DNA of 64,000 nucleotides from Fragilariopsis cylindrus CCMP1102 (lineage: Eukaryota > Bacillariophyta > Bacillariophyceae > Bacillariales > Bacillariaceae). The stretch spans positions 62,001 to 126,000 of the forward strand of contig FMBT01000403.1 in assembly GCA_900095095.1 (NCBI GenBank), written 5' to 3'. Of the stretch, positions 10,459 through 58,334 are shown piece by piece. Made by a program: the position numbers and the translations under genes. The stretch's first letter is position 1. Every line of letters starts with the position of its first letter. The notes beneath the pieces were generated by a model. The model was not told the origin of the DNA and did not search any database. It saw nothing but the letters and a program-made list of their open reading frames with translations.

Positions 10459-11088
10459 CTACAGTTCGTCCTCTTTATCCATAGTTCCCATACTATGTTG
10501 CAATTCTGATATAACCGTTTCCGATATAAGCATCTTTGTTCCCTCATTGTTAGTCATTTCTGCGCATGTTTTTCCATTATCAGCAGCTATCTGCGAATGT
10601 ACATTATTCGTCAAAAAGACCTTCACGGTCTCGGTGTGACGAGGTTCCCGACCCCAGCATGATCTGTGGATAGGATAAAATCCATCTTTGTGTTTGTCCG
10701 TTGCAGGATCCAATACGAAGCCTCCAGCTTCCTTCTGATTGGCAAAGTGTTGAAGTAATACTTCCAATATTTCGGATCTTCCTTGAAAACCTGCAGCATG
10801 AAGAACATTATATCCATCAGTTTCTGTGGCTGCCGTATTGGCACCAAGATCTAATAAAGTCTTGACGGACTCCAATTTACCAGTCAACACGGCATGCAGA
10901 AGTGGTGTCTGTCCTCCCGGTCCAATAGACTCAAGTGTCGACGGGTCATTTTTGACAGCTGATTTTATCGCAGTGGTATCATCCTTCTTCACTCCTTTGA
11001 AGATTTCGTTATCGTCGCTTGCCGAACAGATCTGATGCGACAAGCCAAATACTACCAAAAGGTATAATGAGAACAAGGGAAACTGCAT
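10459..11088 (-). CDS. Secreted or ER-lumenal ankyrin-repeat protein
   Basis: 209 residues. A signal peptide covers about residues 1-23 (hydrophobic LFSLYLLVVFGL, likely cleavage after CSA). Ankyrin repeats follow at about 25-190, with the usual TPLLHAV and GYNVLHAAG motifs and a DGFYPIHRSCWG variant. The protein ends in KEDEL, close to the KDEL/HDEL class of ER-retention signals. Together this suggests a lumenal ER protein, unusual because most ankyrin proteins are cytosolic. The partner and function are unknown. The start is the first ATG and directly precedes the signal peptide. The 3' end nearly abuts the stop of the RPAP1-like gene. Confidence 0.75.
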   Translation of the reverse strand: MQFPLFSLYLLVVFGLSHQICSASDDNEIFKGVKKDDTTAIKSAVKNDPSTLESIGPGGQTPLLHAVLTGKLESVKTLLDLGANTAATETDGYNVLHAAGFQGRSEILEVLLQHFANQKEAGGFVLDPATDKHKDGFYPIHRSCWGREPRHTETVKVFLTNNVHSQIAADNGKTCAEMTNNEGTKMLISETVISELQHSMGTMDKEDEL

Positions 11089-26859: not shown

Positions 26860-29800
26860 CACAAACTCTCGGTGTAAATTGTAGGTTGTCACTACAGCAG
26901 CGGTCGCCACTGTCGCCGCAACTGCTGGAGCGATCGCAGTCCCTACCATTGTGCCAGCGATAATTCCAGCATGTCTAGATCCAGCTTTCCGTGTGCAGGC
27001 TATGAGGAATTTCAAGTTATCATTTGATCGGAAATCATCAGCAACAGAAAGATTTTCTGATTCGGATTCATCCATTAATCTAGCAGATTTTGGGGAAAAT
27101 ATTACGAAAATTTACAATAAAGTTTCAGAACCCTGTTTTGAGACATATCAGAGACGAATGGAAAGTTGCGAACACAAGCATACAACCATAGGTGATGTAA
27201 ATATAACTATATACTGGAACGCATTGGTGACATGCACCGGTTCGTGTCCAGAAGATCCCTTGTTCGGAATTGATACACCTGATTTTGTATCAAGAATGTT
27301 GCAAGATTTTTCACCCTCCCCAACATTGTTACCAAGCTATGCACCTAGTGAGTTACCAAGTAGTTCACCTACACGTCCAAAAGTTGACATCGATATGGAA
27401 TTGGTTGAAAAAGAGCTTGAGAGGTTATTTCAAGTACTGGGCATACTTGAGGATGGATATCATCCTTATTTATTAGATTGGAATAACGAACGAACAGATT
27501 TTGAATCACCAACTGTCAACCCCAGCAATGCACCCTCATTGGAGCCTAGCTCAGGTCCCAGTGGGGAACCAAGTAGCTCTCCTAGTACCATTCCAAGCTC
27601 TTTGCCAAGTACAGCACCAAGTGTATTACCCAGTACAGTTTCTAGTGCACTGCCAAGCATCACTGGATCCTATTTACCTAGTCTTGAACCAAGTAAAGAT
27701 CCTTCAAGAGTACCAAGCACTCTACCAAGTCTTGACCCAAGTGATGTCCCAAGTTCTGTTCCAAGTACGCAACCAAGTAGAGAGCCAAGTCCTGTCCCTA
27801 GCTCTGTTCCATCTACTGTCCCTAGCTTTATTCCAAGTGATGATCCAAGTGGTACTCCGAGTTTGGAACCAAGTAAATATCCTTCAAGTATTCCAAGCAC
27901 TTCATTGCCTTCGGCAACTCCCACTGTATCACCTACAATACCACTCACGCTAGTTCCAACAGTAGCTCCAACAAATGCGCCTTCTTTGGCTCCTACACAA
28001 GCGCCGACACCAGCTCCTACACGTAACCCCACAAACGCACCGACACCAGCTCCGACTCTGTCTTCGAAAGTATCACCAAGTCTACCACCAACGGCCGCTC
28101 CGACTCAGTCTCCAACTTTACCACCGAGTATACCACCGAGTCTACCACCGACAGCAGTACTTACGGCAGTACCTACGGCAGTACCTACGGCAGTACCTAC
28201 GGCAGTACCTACGGCAGGACCTACACCAGTACCTACACCAGCACCTACACCAGTACCTACACCAGTACCTACACCAGTACCTACACCAGTACCTACACCA
28301 GTACCTACACCAGTACCTACACCAGTACCTACACCAGTACCGACAGCAGCTCCTACACTAGTACCGACAGCAGTACCGACAGCAGCTCCTACACCAGTAC
28401 CGACAGCAGTACCAACAGCAGCTCCTACACCAGCTCCTACACCAGCTCCTACACCAGCACCAACATTGAATCCTACATTAACTCCTACACCAGCTCCTAC
28501 ACCAGCACCAACATTGACTCCTACATTGACTCCTTCATTGACTCCTTCATTGACTCCTACATTGACTCCTTCATTGACTCCTACATTGACTCCTACATTG
28601 ACTCCTACATTGACTCCTTCATTGACTCCTACATTGACTCCTACATTGACTCCTACATTGACTCCTTCATTGACTCCTACATTGACTCCAACAGCAGAAC
28701 CAAGTTCATTGCCCAGTTTCATTCCAAGTACTGAGCCGAGTCTTCTACCGAGTGCTGAACCTAGCTCTGTTCCTAGTGCTGATCCAACTGGCGCACCAAG
28801 TTCCATTCGTAGTTCAGAACCGAGTCCATTGCCCAGTTTCATTCCAAGTATTGAGCCGAGTCTTCTACCAAGTGCTGAACCTAGCTCTGTTCCTAGTGCT
28901 GATCCAACTGGCGCTCCAAGTTCCATTCCTAGTACAGAACCGAGTTCATTGCCCAGTTTCATTCCAAGTACTGAGCCGAGTCTTCTACCGAGTGCTGAAC
29001 CTAGCTCTGTTCCTAGTGCTGATCCGACTGGTGCACCAAGTTCCATTCCTAGTACAGAACCAAGTCCATTGCCCAGTTTCATTCCAAGTACTGAGCCGAG
29101 TCTTCTACCGAGTGCTATATCTAGCTCTGTTCCTAGTGCTGATCCAACTGGCGCACCAAGTTCCATTCCTAGTTCAGAACCGAGTCCATTGCCCAGTTTC
29201 ATTCCAAGTATTGAGCCGAGTCTTTTACCGAGTGCTATACCTAGCTCTGTTCCTAGTGCTGATCCAACTGGCGCTCCAAGTTCCATTCCTAGTACAGAAC
29301 CGAGTTCATTGCCTAGTTTCATTCCAAGTACTGAGCCGAGTCTTCTACCGAGTGCTATACCTAGCTCTGTTCCTAGTGCTGATCTAACTGGCGCACCAAG
29401 TTCCATTCCTAGTACAGAACCGAGTTCATTGCCCAGTTTCATTCCAAGTACTGAGCCGAGTCTTCTACCGAGTGCTGAACCTAGCTCTGTTCCTAGTGCT
29501 GATCCGACTGGTGCACCAAGTTCCATTCCTAGTACAGAACCAAGTCCATTGCCCAGTTTCATTCCAAGTATTGAGCCGAGTCTTCTACCGAGTGCTATAC
29601 CTAGCTCTGTTCCTAGTGCTGATCCAACTGGCGCACCAAGTTCCATTCCTAGTTCAGAACCGAGTCCATTGCCCAGTTTCATTCCAAGTATTGAGCCGAG
29701 TCTTTTACCGAGTGCTATACCTAGCTCTGTTCCTAGTGCTGATCCAACTGGCGCTCCAAGTTCCATTCCTAGTACAGAACCGAGTTCATTGCCTAGTTTC

Positions 29801-31672
29801 ATTCCAAGTACTGAGCCAAGTCTTCTACCGAGTGCTGAACCTAGCTCTGTTCCTAGTGCTGATCCAACTGGCGCACCAAGTTCCATTCCTAGTTCAGAAC
29901 CGAGTCCATTGCCCAGTTTCATTCCAAGTATTGAGCCGAGTCTTCTACCGAGTGCTGAACCTAGCTCTGTTCCTAGTGCTGATCCAACTGGCGCACCAAG
30001 TTCCATTCGTAGTTCAGAACCGAGTCCATTGCCCAGTTTCATTCCAAGTACTGAGCCGAGTCTTCTACCAAGTGCTATACCTAGCACTGTTCCTAGTGCT
30101 GATCCAACTGGCGCACCAAGTTCCATTCCTAGTTCAGAACCAAGTTTGGAACCAAGCACAGTACCCAGTCTTGACCCAAGTGCAGCACCAAGTCTAGAGC
30201 CGAGTACTATTCCTAGCTCTTATCCTAGTCGCAATCCAAGCGGTGGACCGAGTACCAACCCGACCACTTTTCCTAGTTCTGCACCAAGCTCGAGGCCTAG
30301 TCTTATTCCAAGCTCTATTCCGAGTTATATTCCAAGTCTTGAGCCGAGCTTTGAGCCGAGTGGTGGACCTAGTACTGTTCCTAGTTTGGAACCAAGTGTG
30401 TTGCCAAGTTTGGTGCCCAGTTCTATCCCAAGTGCTTCTCCAAGTAGGGAGCCAAGTTCTCTTCCAAGTGTTGTGCCAAGTGATGAACCTAGCTATGGTC
30501 CTAGTTTGGAACCAAGTGTGTTGCCAAGTTTGGTGCCCAGTGTCATCCCAAGTGCTTTTCCAAGCAGGAAGCCAAGTGCTGTACCAAGCGTCGAACCAAG
30601 CGGCGAACCTAGCTCTTTTCCTAGTCGCAGTCCAAGCGGCGAGCCGAGTTCAAACCCAACTGTTATTCCTAGTTCCAGTCCCAGCTTACAACCGAGTCTT
30701 TCACCTAGTTCTCAGCCGAGTTACTTTCCAAGTCTACAGCCAAGTGGTCTTCCTAGTTCTGCCCCCAGTTTTGATCCAAGTGACGCACCTTCTGGAGAAC
30801 CTTCTGCAAATCCTAGCGGGTCACCATCAGGCAGTCCATCTGAGTTACCAAGTAGTATGCCTTCTGCCTCACCTAGTTCCACACCAAGTAGATCACCTAG
30901 CGAAACACCAAGTTCTATTCCTTCTGATGGACCAACTGATTTACCCACAAGCTTCCCTACAGATCCTCCCACAAGATTTCCAACGGGTTTTCCAACTCCA
31001 TCTCCATCGGATACACCCAGTGAATCGCCAAGCGCATCTCCTAGTAGGGAACCAACTTTACTTCCAAGTTTCATTCCGAGTACTGTTCCTAGTTTGGAAC
31101 CAAGTGTGCTGCCAAGTTTGGTGCCAAGCGTGTTGCCAAGTTTGTTGCCAAGTTTGGTGCCCAGTTCCATCCCAAGTGCTGTTCCAAGTTTCACTCCTAG
31201 TCTTACACCAAGTGGTGTACCCAGCTCTTCTCCTAGTTTCGATCCAAGTGACGCACCTTCTGGTGGACCTTCTGGTGGACCTTCTGGTGGACCTTCTGGT
31301 GGACCTTCTGCAAATCCTAGTGGATCACCTTCAAGCAGTCCGTCTAAGTTACCGAGTAGTATGCCTGCTGCCTCACCCAGTTCTACACCAAGTAGATTAC
31401 TTTTACCAAGTTTACCACCCACTCCATCGCTTGTATGTGTAAAACCGACTGAATTTCCTCCTGGTAGTTGTCTTGGTTCTACACAGTCTCCAATTGCTAA
31501 TGACAAATGTGAAGTTCAAGGGTATCCGGCGCTCGGGGTTTCCATGGCCGGGGAATCCAGTACATGCTTTTGTGATAGTTTTTGTGCTGGTCTTGGTGAT
31601 TGTTGCGCTGATATATGCAGTTCATCATGTGATACTCTTGAATTCAAAGCCTCTGACGTTTGCTTTTGTTGA
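23686..31672 (+). CDS. Giant Pro-Ser repeat protein with somatomedin-B-like tail
   Basis: Six exons: 23686-25810, 25910-25961, 26114-26137, 26333-26392, 26599-26668 and 26885-31672; phases agree throughout and give 2372 residues. Order: a low-complexity, acidic and His/Arg-rich N-terminus (1-540); a hydrophobic Gly/Ala-rich helix near 543-562 ([16 protein letters not shown]); a Ser/Ala then Ala/Thr/Val tract made by the mini-exons; a second hydrophobic stretch at about 778-808; a globular Cys-containing segment ([14 protein letters not shown] to about 950); then about 1300 residues of PSxxPS and PTxxPT repeats; and finally a Cys-rich domain with [20 protein letters not shown], the C-x-C-D-x-x-C ... 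D-C-C pattern of somatomedin B domains. It is most likely a cell-surface or wall-associated protein anchored near its middle, with the repeat arm and Cys-rich tip outside. Pro/Ser arms of this kind are common in diatoms, but the exact architecture is not one I recognise. Confidence 0.8.
25811..26884 (+). other. Mini-exon and intron array inside the giant repeat gene
   Basis: Introns at 25811-25909, 25962-26113, 26138-26332, 26393-26598 and 26669-26884 separate coding exons of 52, 24, 60 and 70 nt. Exons 3 and 4 are multiples of three and flanked by phase-2 introns, so either can be skipped without a frame change. Exons 3 and 5 both start AGCTGCTG. Introns 1 and 4 share a TTCTTG(T/A)TGTGCAAACCA stretch upstream of the acceptor, hinting that exon-intron units were duplicated. 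A run of 16 C at 26223-26238 and a (CT)n run at about 26831-26861 lie in introns. Confidence 0.7.
28135..28690 (+). repeat. 12-bp PTPV/PTLT coding microrepeats
   Basis: Tandem 6- and 12-bp units coding for P-T-x-V/A (28135-28470), then L-T-P-T/S (28500-28690). They lie within the last exon of the giant gene. Confidence 0.85.
28703..30142 (+). repeat. Twelve tandem copies of a 120-bp coding repeat
   Basis: A 40-residue unit ([20 protein letters not shown] and the following [20 protein letters not shown]) is repeated 12 times with exact 120-bp spacing; the marker CCCAGTTTCATTCCAAGTA recurs once per unit. Four units form a higher-order block: 28921-29400 is repeated as 29401-29880 with about six differences by eye, including shared rare variants. 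The array is therefore young and has grown by unequal exchange or slippage. Confidence 0.93.
31565..31634 (+). other. Somatomedin-B-like Cys motif at the C-terminus
   Basis: Codes for [20 protein letters not shown] plus the next Ser-Cys. The C-x-C-D-x-x-C-x4-D-C-C-x-D spacing fits somatomedin B domains (C-x-C-D-x-x-C ... C-C-x-D). One further Cys pair lies upstream (CLGS and KCEVQ), as the fold would need. Recognised by pattern only. Confidence 0.65.
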
Positions 31673-33196
31673 AACCGAATTGGTTTTTGTATACCACCCC
31701 TTTCGTTTCCGTATCTTGTTGTCTTCTTGTCGTCGACGTTTCATTTCGTTTCGTTCTATTTGAATGATAGATAATATTGGAGACAGGATACGATATGCGA
31801 TATGGCGACGACTATAATAAGGAGGAGCAATCACAGGAGCAAGAGTTATTGTTACTGTTATTTTACCTATCACACAGTAAGAAAATGTGGAGAATTTGTT
31901 TTGGTAGTATACCTTATTTCTCTGATGTATTTCCACTACCACAATACTCATACAAGTACTAGCACCAGTAAATATTACTATTACGACCATCAAGAAGTAT
32001 CGTAATCAATTGGAGAATAATTTATAATAGAATACCAGGATATATCAAAGGATGTAAGTTGTCGTTTTTTAGGATACGTAGTGCGTGATATATCGAATCG
32101 ATTTCTACTAATACAAAAGAAGCATAGGCAGTACATGAATAACCTTTTGATCAATTATGAATCTGAATCTGAACTCCTCGAAGATGAAATATTTGTAGCG
32201 CCTTCTATTCTATCATTTTATGCTTATATACCCAAGGAGCACAAGCTTAAGCTAACCCAGCGAATACCTGAGTCCAACACCACCAAACGAACTGTGGTAA
32301 TCAAAGGATGCCAATGCGCAACTAATATGGTTACATGGTTTAATTGTGACCAACATCCGTGAGATACTACTACGCAAAGGGAGTTTGATTTTAGAGAGAC
32401 GTTCGTCCTTGTGGACTGTTCCGATTAACCCACTCATGTAGAAATTAGAGCGGTTCGAAACGAAGAACCTATAAAGCGTTCCGTCAAAAAGAGAAAACAA
32501 AGTGGAATCGCTCATTTGAACAATGTGAACATAATGTTTTTGGAGTTGGGTTCAGTGAGTCTGCAGTATACCGATAGGCATCTCCCGAAGACTCGTGAGC
32601 AATTAAAGATATCGAATCAACCGAAATGATGGAAATGAATTTGAGTGCCCATGCATAAATTCTCCTGCTGACGAACTCTGTGGTATTGTCAACACGTCAG
32701 TTGGTGACATCTGCAACGATATCAAGATGTTTCATCACGGTCTTCGACTTGAGACAATACGTCCAGTTTCTAGGATGGCATACTGGTGTCCAAGACGAGA
32801 TTTAAATCTTTTGAGAATGCCTTGGCTCTTTGGGTGTTACGGACACAAAAGGTTACATTATTTTTTTCGGCGAAGAATTCTGTTACGAGTATTCTCCGTA
32901 TGTCACACAAGGTACGTAGTTTTTCCTTTTTTTGGGGGGGGGGGGGGGGGGGGCTTCTTGTTTCATAAGACAAGGGAGTGAGCTTATCAAAACCTAATTC
33001 GTCCTCTCACATTTCCTGCTGATATATTATGAAGGGAAATGTTTTTCCAAAATTTCATCAAGACATTGAGTCGCACCAAGTCTATTGCAGTCTCGCTGAT
33101 CTTAAAATCTTGAAGAATAATGAAATATTACGCGGACGAACCCTGCAAGTGAATAACAAGATATAGAATACGAAAAATAAAATAAAAATTACATAC
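31673..33196. other. Intergenic, no supported gene; contains a G20 run
   Basis: 1524 bp between convergent genes. Several frames of under 100 codons are present but none has a credible ATG, codon pattern or recognisable motif. A run of about 20 G at 32934-32953 is the only striking feature. A degraded gene cannot be excluded. Confidence 0.4.
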
Positions 33197-43293: not shown

Positions 43294-45733
<2,440 letters not shown>

Positions 45734-51399: not shown

Positions 51400-51819
51400 T
51401 TAGAGCTCCCGCCCATTCGTTGCACGTGTTTTCGCCCTATCATTTAGTAATTCTTCTCGTTGCAGTATTCGTTTCGAATGTCTTTCGTCAAACTCTCGGT
51501 TTAATTCTTCTAATTTACCTTCGTAAGCCTTCTTTTTTCGTTCCAATTTATTGTATTCGGTTTCAGTCAATAATCTTCCACCACTTGTATGAGAATCTAA
51601 TTGTATATTAACTTCATCAAGGCGACTAGTAAACAAATCACTATGTTCTTGACGTCGTGATACAATCTCTTCATGTGTAGAAGGAATATGACCAGTCACA
51701 TCATCACGTCTGTGATGTCGGGTGTCTGCTGCTACCAAGAACGATGGCGAAGATAAAAGCAACAGCAGCGACGTCCCAGCGAAGAAGAAAAATGCTCCTT
51801 TTAGTATATTATGTGTCAT
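51400..51819 (-). CDS. Secreted helical protein, cluster member A
   Basis: 139 residues from the ATG at 51819; an ATG 17 codons upstream is in frame, but the signal peptide starts cleanly at the second (MTHNILKGAFFFFAGTSLLL). Cleavage is likely after FLVAA. The mature part is charged and helical, with HEEIVSRRQEHSD, then LDSHTSGGRLLTETE, then KAYEGKLEELNREFDERH. The core H-x-x-G-x-x-L-L-T aligns with the proteins at 54840, 56070 and 57624. No intron. It ends in NGREL. No known family is recognised; the role is unknown, perhaps a secreted or ER-lumenal coiled-coil protein. It lies on the far side of the potassium channel gene from its three paralogues. Confidence 0.75.
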   Translation of the reverse strand: MTHNILKGAFFFFAGTSLLLLLSSPSFLVAADTRHHRRDDVTGHIPSTHEEIVSRRQEHSDLFTSRLDEVNIQLDSHTSGGRLLTETEYNKLERKKKAYEGKLEELNREFDERHSKRILQREELLNDRAKTRATNGREL

Positions 51820-52495
51820 CCTTTTTTTTTTTGCGTCGTTCAAAATATAAACTGCAATAAACCAAAGCAATAGTTAGATTCTTGTACAACCTTGCCGATT
51901 TGTGTTTTTAAAAAGCGTCGTTTGTTCACTATTTGATGGATTCGAGATTGAAGATGGAGAGAAATGTTATTGTGACGTTCACTTGTGTGCACATCTGAAC
52001 ATCATCGATATTGAATATAGGATGAAAGAATAGTCATTTTATCATTTCACGACTAAAACCGGAGCATTTTGTCATAATATAATAAAAGGTTCTAATTTGA
52101 AAATGATGGAAATTTCAATTGATGAAATTTCATTAAAATATTTTCCAAAGACTTGTTACTCGTGACTCATTAATAAGTATCTAACGGACTATCTCTCTAC
52201 GTACAGTACGACTACAGCACTTATTATAGTGTACTTAGTACGCATCAGTGCAGTAGATTCGATGGATTCATTCATTCTCCTTGGCTCTGAACGCGATTTT
52301 TTTCTATTTATTATCAATTCTACAATTTCATTCTCGCTCTCGCCATGCACTTTGGAAATTAGACACTGATGGAGCATGAACAATCAAAAGATTTCAACAT
52401 TAGGTGTGTCCGATCTAGATTATAACGACAGGTAGATTACTTCAACTCGATCAGTTTGAGTATAAAGTATTTTACTAGAATACAGCAACAATAAT
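51820..52495. other. Divergent upstream region of cluster member A and the channel gene
   Basis: 676 bp, no gene supported. Confidence 0.4.
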
Positions 52496-54133
52496 ATGAC
52501 GATTGTTGACGAAACAACGAGGACAAACCGAAAGGCTACTACATACAACACATATGGTGAACATAACGATGTAGAAGAATTTTACGGAGGATTGATAGGA
52601 AGGGATAATTTATTACAAAGCAGCATGAGGAAAATCAACTCGACTTTTTTTCGACCAGCTATTTCAGGACTAATTCCGGGTGATTTCGAAGACGGCAAAG
52701 ATGATGATTCCCCACCAACGCAGCAAAATGATAACGAAAATGGCGGTCACGAGTCGATGTATTCGGAACGACATCATAGAAGCTTCCGAAGAAGGTTGTT
52801 CCTGTTCCTGACAGAGCCGTCTAGTTCTTGGGGTTCCGCTATCTATTTTTTCATCTTAATTCTTGCTATATTTGCTTCAAACCTAATCATTATCTTGCAA
52901 ACGATGGCGTATTTTCAGTACACCCCTGTCGATTGTGGCTTTTGCCGAGGAGAGAGCTCTCATGATAAAATTTACGATGATGATCAAGACCAGATTTATA
53001 ATGGATCTGATATAATTCAATGCGTATGTCCACCTCGACCATACCCATACCTTGAAAGGGCTATGGATTACATTTTAATTTTCTTCGCTGTTGAATGGAC
53101 GCTGAGAGTACTCTCTTTTGTCCCTGCGCATCCAAGAACTGATATCATCGGTAAATGTAACGATTGGTTCACATTCTTAACATCAATGCCAACTATGTTT
53201 GATGCATTGGCTATCTGGCCGTATTTCATTGAAATTTTACATTTACCCGGACTTATAAGTCTACGACTTCTACGACTCTTTCGAGTTTTTCAATTTGTTC
53301 GTCTAGGCAAGTATAACTCTATGTTTGTCAGTTTGACCAATGTACTGTACAAAAGTCTCCCATTTTTGAGATTGATGATCGTTGTATTATTCTTCGGGGC
53401 GTCCATTTTTGGTAGTCTAGTATTCTGGTAAGTGGGTATGCACACAGTGGACAGCGTACGCGTTTTATGTACCTCGTAAATCTCGACTAACACAATTGAA
53501 TATGATATTTACAGGTTAGAACAAGGAACGTGGAAGTATTGGGAGCCAACAGGAACTTTTCAATACATTCGCATGAGCAAAGATTTAACGAACGAAGAAA
53601 TCTCTCCTTTCAATTCTATACCTTGTGCCTATTGGTGGTTTATTGTTACAGCAACGACGGTTGGTTATGGGGACTACTACCCCACCAGTACGATTGGCCA
53701 GTGGATTGCAGCATTTGCCATGATTGCTGGGGTCTTGGTCATAGCATTTCCCGTGAGCGTGTTCAGTGACCTTTGGTCCGATGAGTTGAAGAAAGTAAAA
53801 GGCTTTGAATCAATCTTCGAGGACGATAACGATAACGATAACGATAACGATAACGATAATACTGCAAATAATGGTGTCAGTGATAATATCAGGTCAAATG
53901 AAAAGGAAGAGGAACACAAAAGTCGTCGACCGGCGCTTCGTCGACGAGACCATGACCAGTATCAAGAAATTAACATTGGATCTGAGGAGTTACATTCTAA
54001 GAGTTCTACGCATATATATATGGAGAAAGAAGACCTGAACGAAATTGTTTCGTCAATATATACCATACAACAAAATCAAAGGCGTATTCAACGAATAATG
54101 AAAAAGTATTATCTCGATGAAGATCATCATTGA
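52496..54133 (+). CDS. Kv-type voltage-gated potassium channel subunit
   Basis: Two exons, 52496-53427 and 53515-54133, giving 516 residues. Six membrane helices are visible: S1 (AIYFFILILAIFASNLIIIL), a Cys-containing outer loop, S2 (YILIFFAVEWTLRVLSF, with the conserved acidic residue), S3 (FDALAIWPYFIEIL), S4 (ISLRLLRLFRVFQFVRLGK, basic residues at every third position), S5 (RLMIVVLFFGASIFGSLVFW, ending at the intron), and S6 (IAAFAMIAGVLVIAFPVSVF). The pore has the filter TVGYGD in TATTVGYGDYYP. It therefore selects potassium and gates by voltage at a membrane. No T1 tetramerisation domain is seen; the N-terminus is acidic and disordered. The C-terminal tail has an Asp-Asn run coded by a GATAAC repeat and a final coiled-coil-like helix. 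Confidence 0.93.
53823..53860. repeat. GATAAC hexanucleotide run in the channel gene
   Basis: About six GATAAC units code a (Asp-Asn)n tract in the cytosolic tail; in-frame length variation is expected. Confidence 0.85.
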
Positions 54134-54839
54134 GTCGACAATGTTCTTTCTCTGGCTAGAACTTTCAGAAAATAATCACGTGTCAGTATGTTTCAGTTCC
54201 GCGTGACTAGTTTGTTCGGAGTGAAAAGACAACAAAATAATACTCTCCATCGGGTTTGTGATCCTGAACAATGAATCGAATCAATTCTTGTATTCATCAG
54301 CCTATACATTTTAATGAAAAGAGCCATAGGATCACATAAATTGTATCGAAAATGACTGGATCCCATTGGATTTCAAGTCGAAGGCATTGCTTCATTTTAT
54401 AGGCCGAAATGACATGTCCCCCCTTTTAGTCTTGCTAGTCATAGATTTGTTCACATATCTTATCTTATGATGATTTAATACTTCTTTTTCGGTAATAGCA
54501 GTTTTTCCTGTGAAAAGATAAAATTATAAATACAAGTTATGTTTCTTTATTTACTTCCGAAAAGGCGCACGACAAGGAAGACAGAAACTAATTCTCCCTC
54601 ACCACTAAGACCGATAATTTATTGGCTGATATTTAAAGTGATTGGGAAACGACGATCAGCGAGCAGGGTTTCGCCGATTTTAGATGTAGAACAAAAACAG
54701 ATCGAAGATCGACGATATGGCGATATTGAAACGTATATCATACATCCCATCTCACCACTCGTCGTGATAATGAAATACCGTATGTAGCATGCATGTAGCA
54801 ATAATAATCTACTATACGTTATTCTTCTTCTTCCGAACT
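54134..54839. other. Intergenic between the channel and cluster member B
   Basis: 706 bp between convergent genes. Frames here are short and show no motif. Confidence 0.4.
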
Positions 54840-55286
54840 TTAGAATTCGCTGTCACTCTTCACTCGTCGTGAATGTTGACTCCTTTCACGACGACGGTTC
54901 GCATTATCTGTTTCTCGAACAACAAGTCGTTCAATTTCCCACTCCTCCAAGTCGACTTGCATCGAATCGAGCTTCCGTTGAAAAATATCCATTTTATTTT
55001 CGAATTGTTCTTTCTGCTCCATTGTCAATATCTTCTCACCAGCAGAATGATCAGCTAGTTGCTTCCGTGCATCCAGAATCATTACTTTGTACTGTCTCTT
55101 CCGACGTTCTCTAGTCTGCAGAATTTCTTCCCTGGTTGTGTCTCCATATGATGAGTTTTCATGTAGTCTTTTATATTCTTTATCTACTGCCGCTAAGGTT
55201 GGGGTGCTGCCGAATACCAAGGCCGCGGACACAATAAGTGCAAATAGCACTAATCGCGAAGCAAGTGATTGACGAAGTCGCAACAT
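54840..55286 (-). CDS. Secreted helical protein, cluster member B
   Basis: 148 residues, single exon. Signal peptide at about residues 1-33 (LVLFALIVSAALVFG, cleavage near TLAA). Mature part: TTREEILQTRERRKRQYK, then LADHSAGEKILTMEQ, then MDIFQRKLDSMQVDLEEWE, with a basic tail rich in Arg and Ser that ends KSDSEF. The H-x-x-G-x-x-I-L-T core and the preceding R-E-E-I-L helix align with the other three cluster members. Predicted mainly helical or coiled coil. No known family; function unknown. Minus strand, as are the other cluster genes. Confidence 0.78.
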   Translation of the reverse strand: MLRLRQSLASRLVLFALIVSAALVFGSTPTLAAVDKEYKRLHENSSYGDTTREEILQTRERRKRQYKVMILDARKQLADHSAGEKILTMEQKEQFENKMDIFQRKLDSMQVDLEEWEIERLVVRETDNANRRRERSQHSRRVKSDSEF

Positions 55287-56032
55287 CTGGAATGGGGTAC
55301 TTAAAATGTAATTTCTGTTGATGTTTCTTGGTGTTCTTCGTATTATATTACAAGCATGTGAAAAGATGAAAAGTATAACTATGCCGAATTGTCACTTCGG
55401 TACGGTAATAATAGACCCAGCAACAATAAGCGGAAAAGAGAAATAAAATAAATCAAAAAAATTGCCTTAATTTTGAAAATAACGGCACCGCGCGTGTCTG
55501 ACCAAAATCCAAAATTCTTGAAATATTGCGGTAATAATTAAATTATCAGCGCACCCCCGAAAGAAAAAGAATATAAATATTTTTATTTTTTATACTGTAG
55601 TATATTTTTGTATCTACTGTAGCTAGGTCTAGAGTACGTATTTCATCTTTCATCTGAAAGGGTAGGTGTATCTAGAATTTTTCACACGAAGTTTCTGCAA
55701 AAATACAGTTCGAGTACGGTATTAATTTTTTTACATATCCATCTATATAATAACTACGTAACTTCCGCGTATCATCCTGTCGTGAAAGAAATTGTCAAAC
55801 CTACTTTACGTGGCACTTACTTTTACTCGAAAATACAAAATACATTATAGTTAAGTATCATTCCAATGTATTATTTTTATCTCAATATCGTCGCGACTGG
55901 GATGTAAAGTTCCTAACGTCAATAATATGTGCCAAAATTTCTTCGAATTAGCTAGTCGATTGCTGATTATATGGTCACATATCCATCAATGTCTTCCGAT
56001 ATGTTCGATAGCATTGCTCTCTCTCCAGGATT

Positions 56033-56034
<2 letters not shown>
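55287..56034. other. Intergenic between cluster members C and B
   Basis: About 750 bp of AT-rich DNA, with the upstream region of member B. Nothing else is seen. Confidence 0.4.

Positions 56035-56068
<34 letters not shown>
56035..56068. repeat. TG dinucleotide run (17 units)
   Basis: (TG)17, read as (CA)17 on the minus strand. It begins 1 nt after the stop codon of cluster member C, so it forms the start of that gene's 3' UTR. Confidence 0.95.
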
Positions 56069-56069
<1 letters not shown>

Positions 56070-56777
56070 TTACAGTTCTGAATTACGGCGCTCTTCTCGC
56101 ATCCTTGTTCGGTCCATGATTCGATTGACCTCTCTGTCATCCATAGGTCCTGACATCTGTTCAATCTACGGGCCGGACATGATTCAACGATGAAAAATGA
56201 GCGTATCATCATATAAGTAAGTGCATACAGTATTCTTAATATTGTGTGAAACAGAGGAATAATTATCGATAGATATCCATTATTTCAATGGAAAAGTATA
56301 GAGTTGTATTTGAATTCAAAACATACCTTTTTCTCGTATAGGGGAATACGTTTTGTTAACCTTTTATATTCATCGTCTTCCAGTAAATTTTTTCCGGCAT
56401 CGTGATCTGCAAGCTTTACTTTCGTTTCCGCGACTAACTTTGTCAGCTGTTCCTTACGTCGTCCATAGTTAGCAACTACGTGTTCCCGCTAATAATCATC
56501 AATCAGACAAGGAAAGTATTCGACAGTTAGTATTAAAATAGTGAGTATATTATAATTCGTATAGCAAGACTTGAGAAAAGTACAGAACGAGCGTACTTGG
56601 AATTTTCACATCACGTACCGTAGATGCATCTCGATCGATAGTAATTTTTGGCCCAGTTTGATCGATAGTTTGAATTTGTGCGTGTGTCACCCCAGTTTGA
56701 AGCGTAAGCGTCACTGTAAATAAGTACAAGGCATGTAAGATGAAAGCGGTGTAAGAGATGCGTCTTTTTACCATCAT
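56070..56777 (-). CDS. Secreted helical protein, cluster member C
   Basis: Three exons on the minus strand, 56777-56619, 56488-56327 and 56165-56070, all phase 0, giving 138 residues. Exon 1 holds the signal peptide (hydrophobic FILHALYLFTVTLTL, cleavage near VTHA). Exon 2 begins REHVVANYGRRKEQL and includes LADHDAGKNLLEDDE and KRIPLYEKK. Exon 3 codes a charged tail that ends RRNSEL. The core aligns with members A, B and D; intron 1 falls right before the R-E-H/H-E-K block, at the same place and phase as in member D. The tail has Arg-rich stretches. No known domain; function unknown. Confidence 0.75.
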
Positions 56778-57623
56778 AATCCCAGGAAGAGTAGTATTGA
56801 ATTTGGGGGAGCAATTGCAAGGACGATAGCCTAGATTGAGTAAAAAAACGAGAACGAGAAGATTGTTCTTTTGCTATCTCGTCGGTTTATTGTATCAGTT
56901 ATTGTCATCGTCGCTATTTTACGGTGATAACGTTATATATCATTGCTTTATTACGAAGTATTATGATGATCGATAGATTTTCAAGGATCGACGCGTACAC
57001 TGCTGGACGTGGCAAAACTATAAGACTTACTTAGCTCCTCCAAAATTAAAAACTACTGTACAACACTTGAGAAAATCTATTGAAGATTTTAGTAGCAGAC
57101 TCAAAGCACAACCCCAAGTAGAAGAGAGGGAAAGTACATTTAAGAATATATTGAAAAGAACACAAAAACACAAACTAATACAAACGTGGTGATGTAGAAT
57201 GTTGTGTGATGATCGCAGATTCTAATGAATACGATCGAAAAAAGAATACGATAATAATATCACCACACTATGATTCGGAAATCTGACTACTTATTATAGA
57301 CTGTCACGGGGAGCGTATATTACATATTGCGTTTAACTTCACTGTGTAATTTCATCGGTGATATTTATTGATCAGCATTGAGATGGTGTTAATATTCGAA
57401 TTGAAAATTTGTGTATGAACTCCCAACATACTGCGTTTATAATATAAATAAAGTGTAATTTGAGAGTAGCATAGGATACAGTCGTCGACGTCCCGTCATT
57501 ATCGTATAATTCGATTCTTTTTGTGTGATTGATTCGACTAGTATGAAATTTAATTATTTAAAGAAGCGTTATCTATCTGTGCTGAAGAAATCATCACCAT
57601 CCTCATCATTGTGATCTACAATT
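56778..57623. other. Intergenic between cluster members D and C
   Basis: 846 bp, no supported gene. AT-rich. Confidence 0.4.
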
Positions 57624-58334
57624 CTATAGTTCCCCATTCTTCTCTTCCTCGGTGATGATTAATTCCTTGATTTCCTTCGGACACAATGACAATGATAAGT
57701 ATTATAGGAGGTGATGAAGGTTATGAGATGAGAAAAAAAACATATTATGAAACGAGAAAATGAGAGGACAACATCGTATATGATACACCCATTTTCTTTT
57801 TTCTCCTCAAGGTCAAGTAATACTCTTTTTACAATACAAAAATAAATAAATAAACATACCTGCTGTGACAAACCCCTCGATGCTTCAAAAATTTGTGCCT
57901 TATAGGAATTCATTCTAGTTTTTAGAGACTTAAGACGTTGATCCTCTAAGACTTTGACACCATTTTTATGGTTCTCGATTTGTTTTTCTAAAGATGCAAG
58001 TGCATACTCTAATTGAATGACTTTCTTTGATCGATCTGATAAGATTTTCTCATGCTATATATTATATTGATCGAGAGGAGATAAAATTAGATCCATCAAT
58101 CAGAGTTGTATACATTGAAAGAAAGCGAAATGGTTGCATTAGTATTGTTGTTGATTACGGTACTTCGAGCAAAGCAAAACAAAACAAAGCAAGAAAAAAA
58201 AATGTAAAGGGAAACATCTTGGTTCGAAAATACACCAGTAAACATACCATCGCCGTCGTATCGGCTTCCGCGAAAAGCACAACCAACAGTAGAACGAAAC
58301 ATAATAGTAATTTGGACTTGGCCATCATGATCAT
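57624..58334 (-). CDS. Secreted helical protein, cluster member D
   Basis: Three exons on the minus strand, 58334-58248, 58054-57860 and 57674-57624, all phase 0, giving 110 residues. Exon 1 codes the signal peptide (LLLCFVLLLVVLFAEA, cleavage after AEA). Exon 2 begins HEKILSDRSKKVIQLEYA and includes IENHKNGVKVLEDQR and MNSYKAQIFEASRGLSQQ. Exon 3, short and less certain, ends EEKNGEL. The alignment to members A-C runs through the H-x-x-G-x-x-V-L-E core. It is the shortest member. Three alternative Met start codons lie within the first four residues. Function unknown. Confidence 0.7.

Follow-up and report, generated by a model that had tools for sequence, protein, structure and literature searches.

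The four short genes at 51400 to 58334 of the window (the whole 64-kb stretch of DNA that was analysed), here designated A, B, C and D, raise the question of whether they form one family and, if so, in which compartment their products would reside and what they would do there. A sequence-only reading had described them as locally duplicated paralogues of an unrecognised family, secreted and possibly under changing selection. These claims were followed up by comparisons within the window, in the 68-Mb genome assembly (818 contigs) and in databases, and by structure prediction. In this assembly the window corresponds to 62001-126000 of contig C441.

Gene models and family relationship

All four genes were readable on the minus strand where they had been proposed, and their features are given below.

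Gene A, 51400..51819, minus strand: single exon, intact, 139 aa; signal-peptide-like N-terminus, helical hairpin (predicted), C-terminus GREL
Gene B, 54840..55286, minus strand: single exon, intact, 148 aa; signal-peptide-like N-terminus, helical hairpin (predicted), C-terminus DSEF
Gene C whole, 56070..56777, minus strand: three exons, two introns
Gene C exon 1, 56619..56777, minus strand: signal-peptide-like N-terminus; phase 0 end before REHVV
Gene C exon 2, 56327..56488, minus strand: [RH]-E motif, helix 1, H-x-x-G turn, start of helix 2
Gene C exon 3, 56070..56165, minus strand: remainder of helix 2, C-terminus NSEL and stop
Gene D whole, 57624..58334, minus strand: three exons, two introns
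Gene D exon 1, 58248..58334, minus strand: signal-peptide-like N-terminus; phase 0 end before HEKIL
Gene D exon 2, 57860..58054, minus strand: core block
Gene D exon 3, 57624..57674, minus strand: acceptor CCGAAG (inferred); EIKELIITEEEKNGEL and stop

The introns of gene C were GTACGT..TTAG and GTATGT..GTAG and those of gene D were GTATGT..ATAG and GTATGT..GAAG, with AAG as an unusual acceptor of the last D intron. This acceptor is supported because EIKELII of D exon 3 aligns without a gap with EIERLVV of B. Nine candidate starts of D exon 3 were translated. Four lie upstream, share one frame and end in NGEL, and one of these does not follow an AG; the other five, downstream, lead to unrelated ends. 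The first intron is of phase 0 and lies directly 5' of the [RH]-E motif in both C and D, and this common position is likely a shared ancestral feature; the second introns of the two genes lie at different positions. On sequence grounds, namely splice sites, exon alignment and the haplotype comparison given below, the splicing proposed earlier for C and D holds. The possibility of D as a non-gene was rejected, as its exons align with A, B and C and its two haplotypes differ by 5 synonymous versus 2 non-synonymous changes, which are few.

A hydrophobic N-terminal core was found in 4/4 of the proteins, with the best 12-residue Kyte-Doolittle mean from 2.0 to 3.7. Cleavage sites were placed by eye (after ..FLVAA in A and after ..PTLAA in B), and the residues after cleavage were D, V, Q and D in A, B, C and D, respectively. 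The four products would thus enter the endoplasmic reticulum (ER) by a putative signal peptide.

The common motif block is as it had been described: HEEIV, REEIL, REHVV and HEKIL, followed by LDSHTSGGRLLTE, LADHSAGEKILTM, LADHDAGKNLLED and IENHKNGVKVLED, in A, B, C and D, respectively. Invariant positions are the H, G and L of the turn and an E close to the beginning of helix 1. For the pairwise test, Smith-Waterman scores were compared with those from 1,000 shuffles, both plain and heptad-preserving. In 6/6 pairs the real scores (81-124) exceeded the shuffle means (31-40) with z values of 7.3-14.8 and were reached by 0/1,000 shuffles, and the alignments, 78-108 residues long, contained no more than one short gap each. 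The identity of the paralogues to A was 22-25%, which suggests that the duplications are old.

In the genome searches the best 8-12 candidates were scored per query. A consensus query matched all four loci (A-D) and, on the second haplotype, A, B and C (not D), and the next match elsewhere had an E of 2.5 among the best candidates scored. D scored 1.3e-7 in this search, a somewhat flattering value as D itself is partly built into the consensus. Queries with A, B or C found A, B, C and their second-haplotype copies and, among the best 8-11 candidates scored, not D. With D as the query, B was found at E 0.015 and 0.020 and A at 0.23, and C was absent from the best 8-11 candidates scored. All matches of the single-member queries below E 0.1 lay within the cluster or its second-haplotype copy (best 8-11 scored), and matches outside the cluster had E values of at least 0.5 (on contig C92 for a single-member query and on C182, C97 and C148 for the consensus query). 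By these sequence scores D is the weakest member, and the pairwise and genome comparisons together make it almost certain that A-D form one family, as had been claimed. The proposal of local duplication is likewise upheld, since no other family member was found among the candidates scored with the consensus query.

The sequence-only reading had not recognised the family, and searches of Pfam, NCBIfam and PDB returned nothing convincing. No relatives were found in viral contigs (queries A and B) or in bacterial and archaeal genomes (query B), and a text-based literature search, in which sequences cannot be queried, retrieved no description of the family.

Structure prediction was done by using AlphaFold2 on the mature A and B, each with an alignment made up of the other of the two and exon 2 of C and D. 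The predicted helices were at 18-47 and 55-107 in A (mean pLDDT 82.8) and at 19-48 and 56-114 in B (mean pLDDT 83.1). Both models are antiparallel two-helix hairpins that turn at the conserved H-x-x-G-x-x-x-L, of which the H ends helix 1 and the G and L lie within the turn. Helix 2 exceeds helix 1 by more than 20 residues, and in these models the long second helix could bind partners. Its block columns 41, 44, 48, 51, 55, 58 and 62, with a spacing of 3-4, are hydrophobic in 3/4 or 4/4 members. Only generic hairpins came up in the fold comparison, with no Foldseek match at E <= 0.001 (best 0.47).

Second haplotype, selection and neighbouring genes

A collinear copy of the cluster is carried by contig C299 in three pieces over 18 kb with 93.6-95.4% identity; it was treated as the other haplotype and used as an internal check on the gene models. 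Between the haplotypes, the exons of C differ by 1.1-2.5% and its introns by 3.1-3.7% with no gaps in either, and the exons of D differ by 0-3.5% and its introns by 5.4-6.7% with nine gap events. On the other haplotype, A, B and C are complete frames with their stops preserved. In the D copy (C299:15000-24999), exon 2 lacks one base in each of two A-runs, which breaks the frame; this copy may be either a null allele or the product of an assembly error. A frame change is likewise seen at the BiP locus.

For the calculation of dN/dS, each multiply changed codon (B 19 and C 87) was divided equally, and D codons containing gaps were excluded. The values between the haplotypes, which derive from few changes, were 0.15, 0.17, 0.49 and 0.10 for A, B, C and D, respectively, and the same counting gave 0.09-0.42 for neighbouring gene frames. 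When A-D were pooled, 12 non-synonymous changes at about 1,247 sites stood against 17 synonymous changes at about 361 sites (Fisher p 2.3e-5). The haplotype comparison indicates purifying selection on the family overall. The constraint is loosest on C, the changed codons 86 and 87 of which lie directly after the conserved glycine. No sign of diversifying selection on A-D was seen between the haplotypes, and the suggestion of changing selection did not stand up, with weaker purifying selection in C alone.

Near the cluster lie a mitochondrial carrier and, beyond D, a CS-domain protein, and an ion channel occupies the opposite strand between A and B; no hint of a pathway came from these genes. 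The ion-channel gene (52496-54133) lies in two frames, probably with an intron between, and contains a DNDNDN run encoded by a 6-base repeat (53823-53859). Elsewhere in the window, a 1573-codon frame at 26951-31672 carries very long PSxxPS / PTxxPT repeats, has a C-terminus rich in cysteine and is probably the source of the high G+C and strong skew at 28001-32000. Two tandem copies of 153 bases, 90% alike, lie at 45152-45456.

C-terminal ends and a possible retrieval code

The C-termini of A, B, C and D are GREL, DSEF, NSEL and NGEL, respectively, that is E-[LF] in 4/4, with NGEL depending on the inferred splice site of D. Among the stop-to-stop frames of at least 60 codons in the 64-kb window, 6/291 (about 2%) end in E-[LF], which makes chance unlikely for the family; the four ends are not fully independent observations owing to the homology of A-D. 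These six comprise A, B, an ankyrin-repeat protein (EDEL), a frame that continues from C exon 1 into the adjoining intron (LYEL) and two further frames. On the other haplotype each of the four genes retains its stop and its E-[LF] end; the tags of B and C are unchanged there (DSEF and NSEL), and A ends in RREL, the two residues before REL being altered and REL kept.

The classical K/H-D-E-L is absent from all four ends, which have R, S, S and G, respectively, at position -3. The strict retrieval pattern has an acidic or amide residue at -3 and is not matched by GREL, DSEF, NSEL or NGEL. To establish which ER tag the organism employs, C-termini were also read from ER-type proteins of the same genome. 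Four reference proteins were selected by visual inspection of 50 HSP70 and thioredoxin loci and one calreticulin stretch, and the ends were DDEL in BiP, SDEL in a protein disulfide isomerase (PDI), GGEL in a second PDI and GDEF in a calreticulin-family protein. The DDEL of BiP lies in a frame differing from that of the preceding block and was recognised by its likeness to known BiP tails. SDEL ended both of two copies of the first PDI, with the signal-peptide exon read in one copy. The second PDI (L071, contig C86) has a signal-peptide-like start and GGEL after an aspartate run, and the calreticulin-family protein (L082, contig C97) was assigned without its signal peptide being read.

Among thioredoxin-type frames with a hydrophobic N-terminus, those without an E-[LF] end (L052/L053, QQKHR; L054, INSHR; L079, LSIL) were taken by eye as plastid or other proteins, and L055, which has no visible signal peptide, ends in GDDL. 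The remaining HSP70 and thioredoxin loci were cytosolic, plastid-like or transmembrane in appearance (e.g. L065 and L073) or had ends unassignable across introns. Five minus-strand loci (L045, L046, L049, L051 and L075), which were not read in the correct orientation, lie outside the comparison. GGEL and GDEF are, in themselves, non-classical ER tags in this genome. The ankyrin-repeat protein at 10459-11088 (209 aa, Pfam E 3e-12) has a signal-peptide-like start together with its EDEL and is likely another resident of the ER lumen, an unusual place for ankyrin repeats.

The x-x-E-[LF] type of these reference proteins is matched by 4/4 members of the family, and the KDEL-receptor family (PF00810) has two loci in the genome, on contigs C558 and C182 (E 9.5e-49 and 1.7e-32, order of contigs not implied). 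Judged from these ends, A-D probably reside in the ER by retrieval. The retrieval reading is weakest in the lack of an acid at -3, which the GGEL end of the PDI makes acceptable, not proven. In the literature, DDEL is reported to retain a protein in the diatom P. tricornutum (PMC3503769) and not to function as a retention signal in human cells (PMC8248988). The human receptor is described as forming a salt bridge to the -3 aspartate of the tag (PMC8248988). H/KDEF is described as working in mammalian cells with less efficiency than with a final L (PMC7617889), and KDEL, DDEL and DEEL are the three forms named as checked for in one diatom genome analysis (PMC2173943).

The earlier word "secreted", in the sense of exported, is not supported by ends that resemble those of four ER-type proteins of the genome. 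An export of A-D to the cell wall, or for signalling or defence, with E-[LF] ends inherited or arisen by chance and without function, would fit the signal-peptide-like N-termini, the departure from K/HDEL and the background of about 2% of window frames. We consider it unlikely, as the ends are kept in 4/4 members although the paralogues are 22-25% identical to A and the tails differ in length, and as a PDI and a calreticulin-family protein of the same genome end similarly.

Possible role and comparison with known systems

The explanation preferred here, to which a probability of about 0.6 is given as a whole, is that one gene for a small ER-lumen protein gave rise by old local duplication to the four genes. 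Each protein would enter the ER via its signal peptide, as its N-terminus indicates, and would fold into the predicted antiparallel two-helix hairpin with H-x-x-G-x-x-x-L at the turn. The x-x-E-[L/F] end would be read by a KDEL-type receptor and the protein returned from the Golgi to the ER, as the likeness to the ER-type proteins of the genome suggests. As a guess, the proteins would then act as non-enzymatic escorts or co-chaperones, the charged helix 2 binding secretory clients or BiP/PDI in a RAP-like manner and different paralogues serving different clients. The escort or adaptor role itself, which is put forward by analogy, is doubtful at present.

The ER residents might instead have a structural or buffering job as charged coiled coils, and the highly charged helices and the generic hairpin fold are in keeping with this. 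Such a job is rather improbable for A-D, for the invariance of H, G and L in the turn and of an E early in helix 1 suggests a defined interface, and the charge is mixed, whereas that of known Ca buffers is mainly acidic. A plastid or periplastid location by way of a bipartite targeting sequence, which the residues between the signal-peptide-like part and the block in A-C might suggest, is very improbable, as the diatom plastid rule given for the site directly after cleavage is F, W, Y or L (PMC2173943), the residues placed at this site by eye are D, V, Q and D, and gene D has only about 5 residues from cleavage to block.

For the preferred ER-lumen reading, a wider version is tentatively possible: a novel ER-lumen escort family expanded at one locus, together with a relaxed x-x-E-[L/F] code that needs no acid at -3 and is also used by a PDI (GGEL) and, with a final F, by a calreticulin-family protein (GDEF), which would imply a KDEL receptor with altered specificity. 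A retrieval code wider than KDEL, DDEL or DEEL is suggested by these ends, so that annotation may miss ER proteins. An unnamed family of secreted unknowns thereby gains a compartment as a testable hypothesis, the ER lumen.

RAP (LRPAP1), the ER escort of LDL-receptor-family proteins, is small and helical and has three domains, whereas A-D are predicted to have a single hairpin. Like A-D as proposed here, RAP is a soluble protein of the ER whose retrieval tag is a variant, given as HNEL (PMC8239462). The RAP model (Alpha-2-MRAP) was absent from the Pfam-A scan of A-D at E 1, and by this Pfam test A-D are outside the RAP family; PF06401 had no match in the genome in a search that detected 0/14 controls. 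MANF and CDNF are cysteine-rich, whereas A, B and C are cysteine-free and D has one cysteine in its signal-peptide-like part. They gave no match in the Pfam scan of A-D and resemble the family as small ER proteins with a KDEL-like variant tag, given as RTDL and [QK]TEL (PMC4731063). HSP70, thioredoxin and calreticulin domains were not detected in A-D by the Pfam scan, and the likeness to the BiP, the two PDIs and the calreticulin family of the genome lies in their E-L or E-F end.
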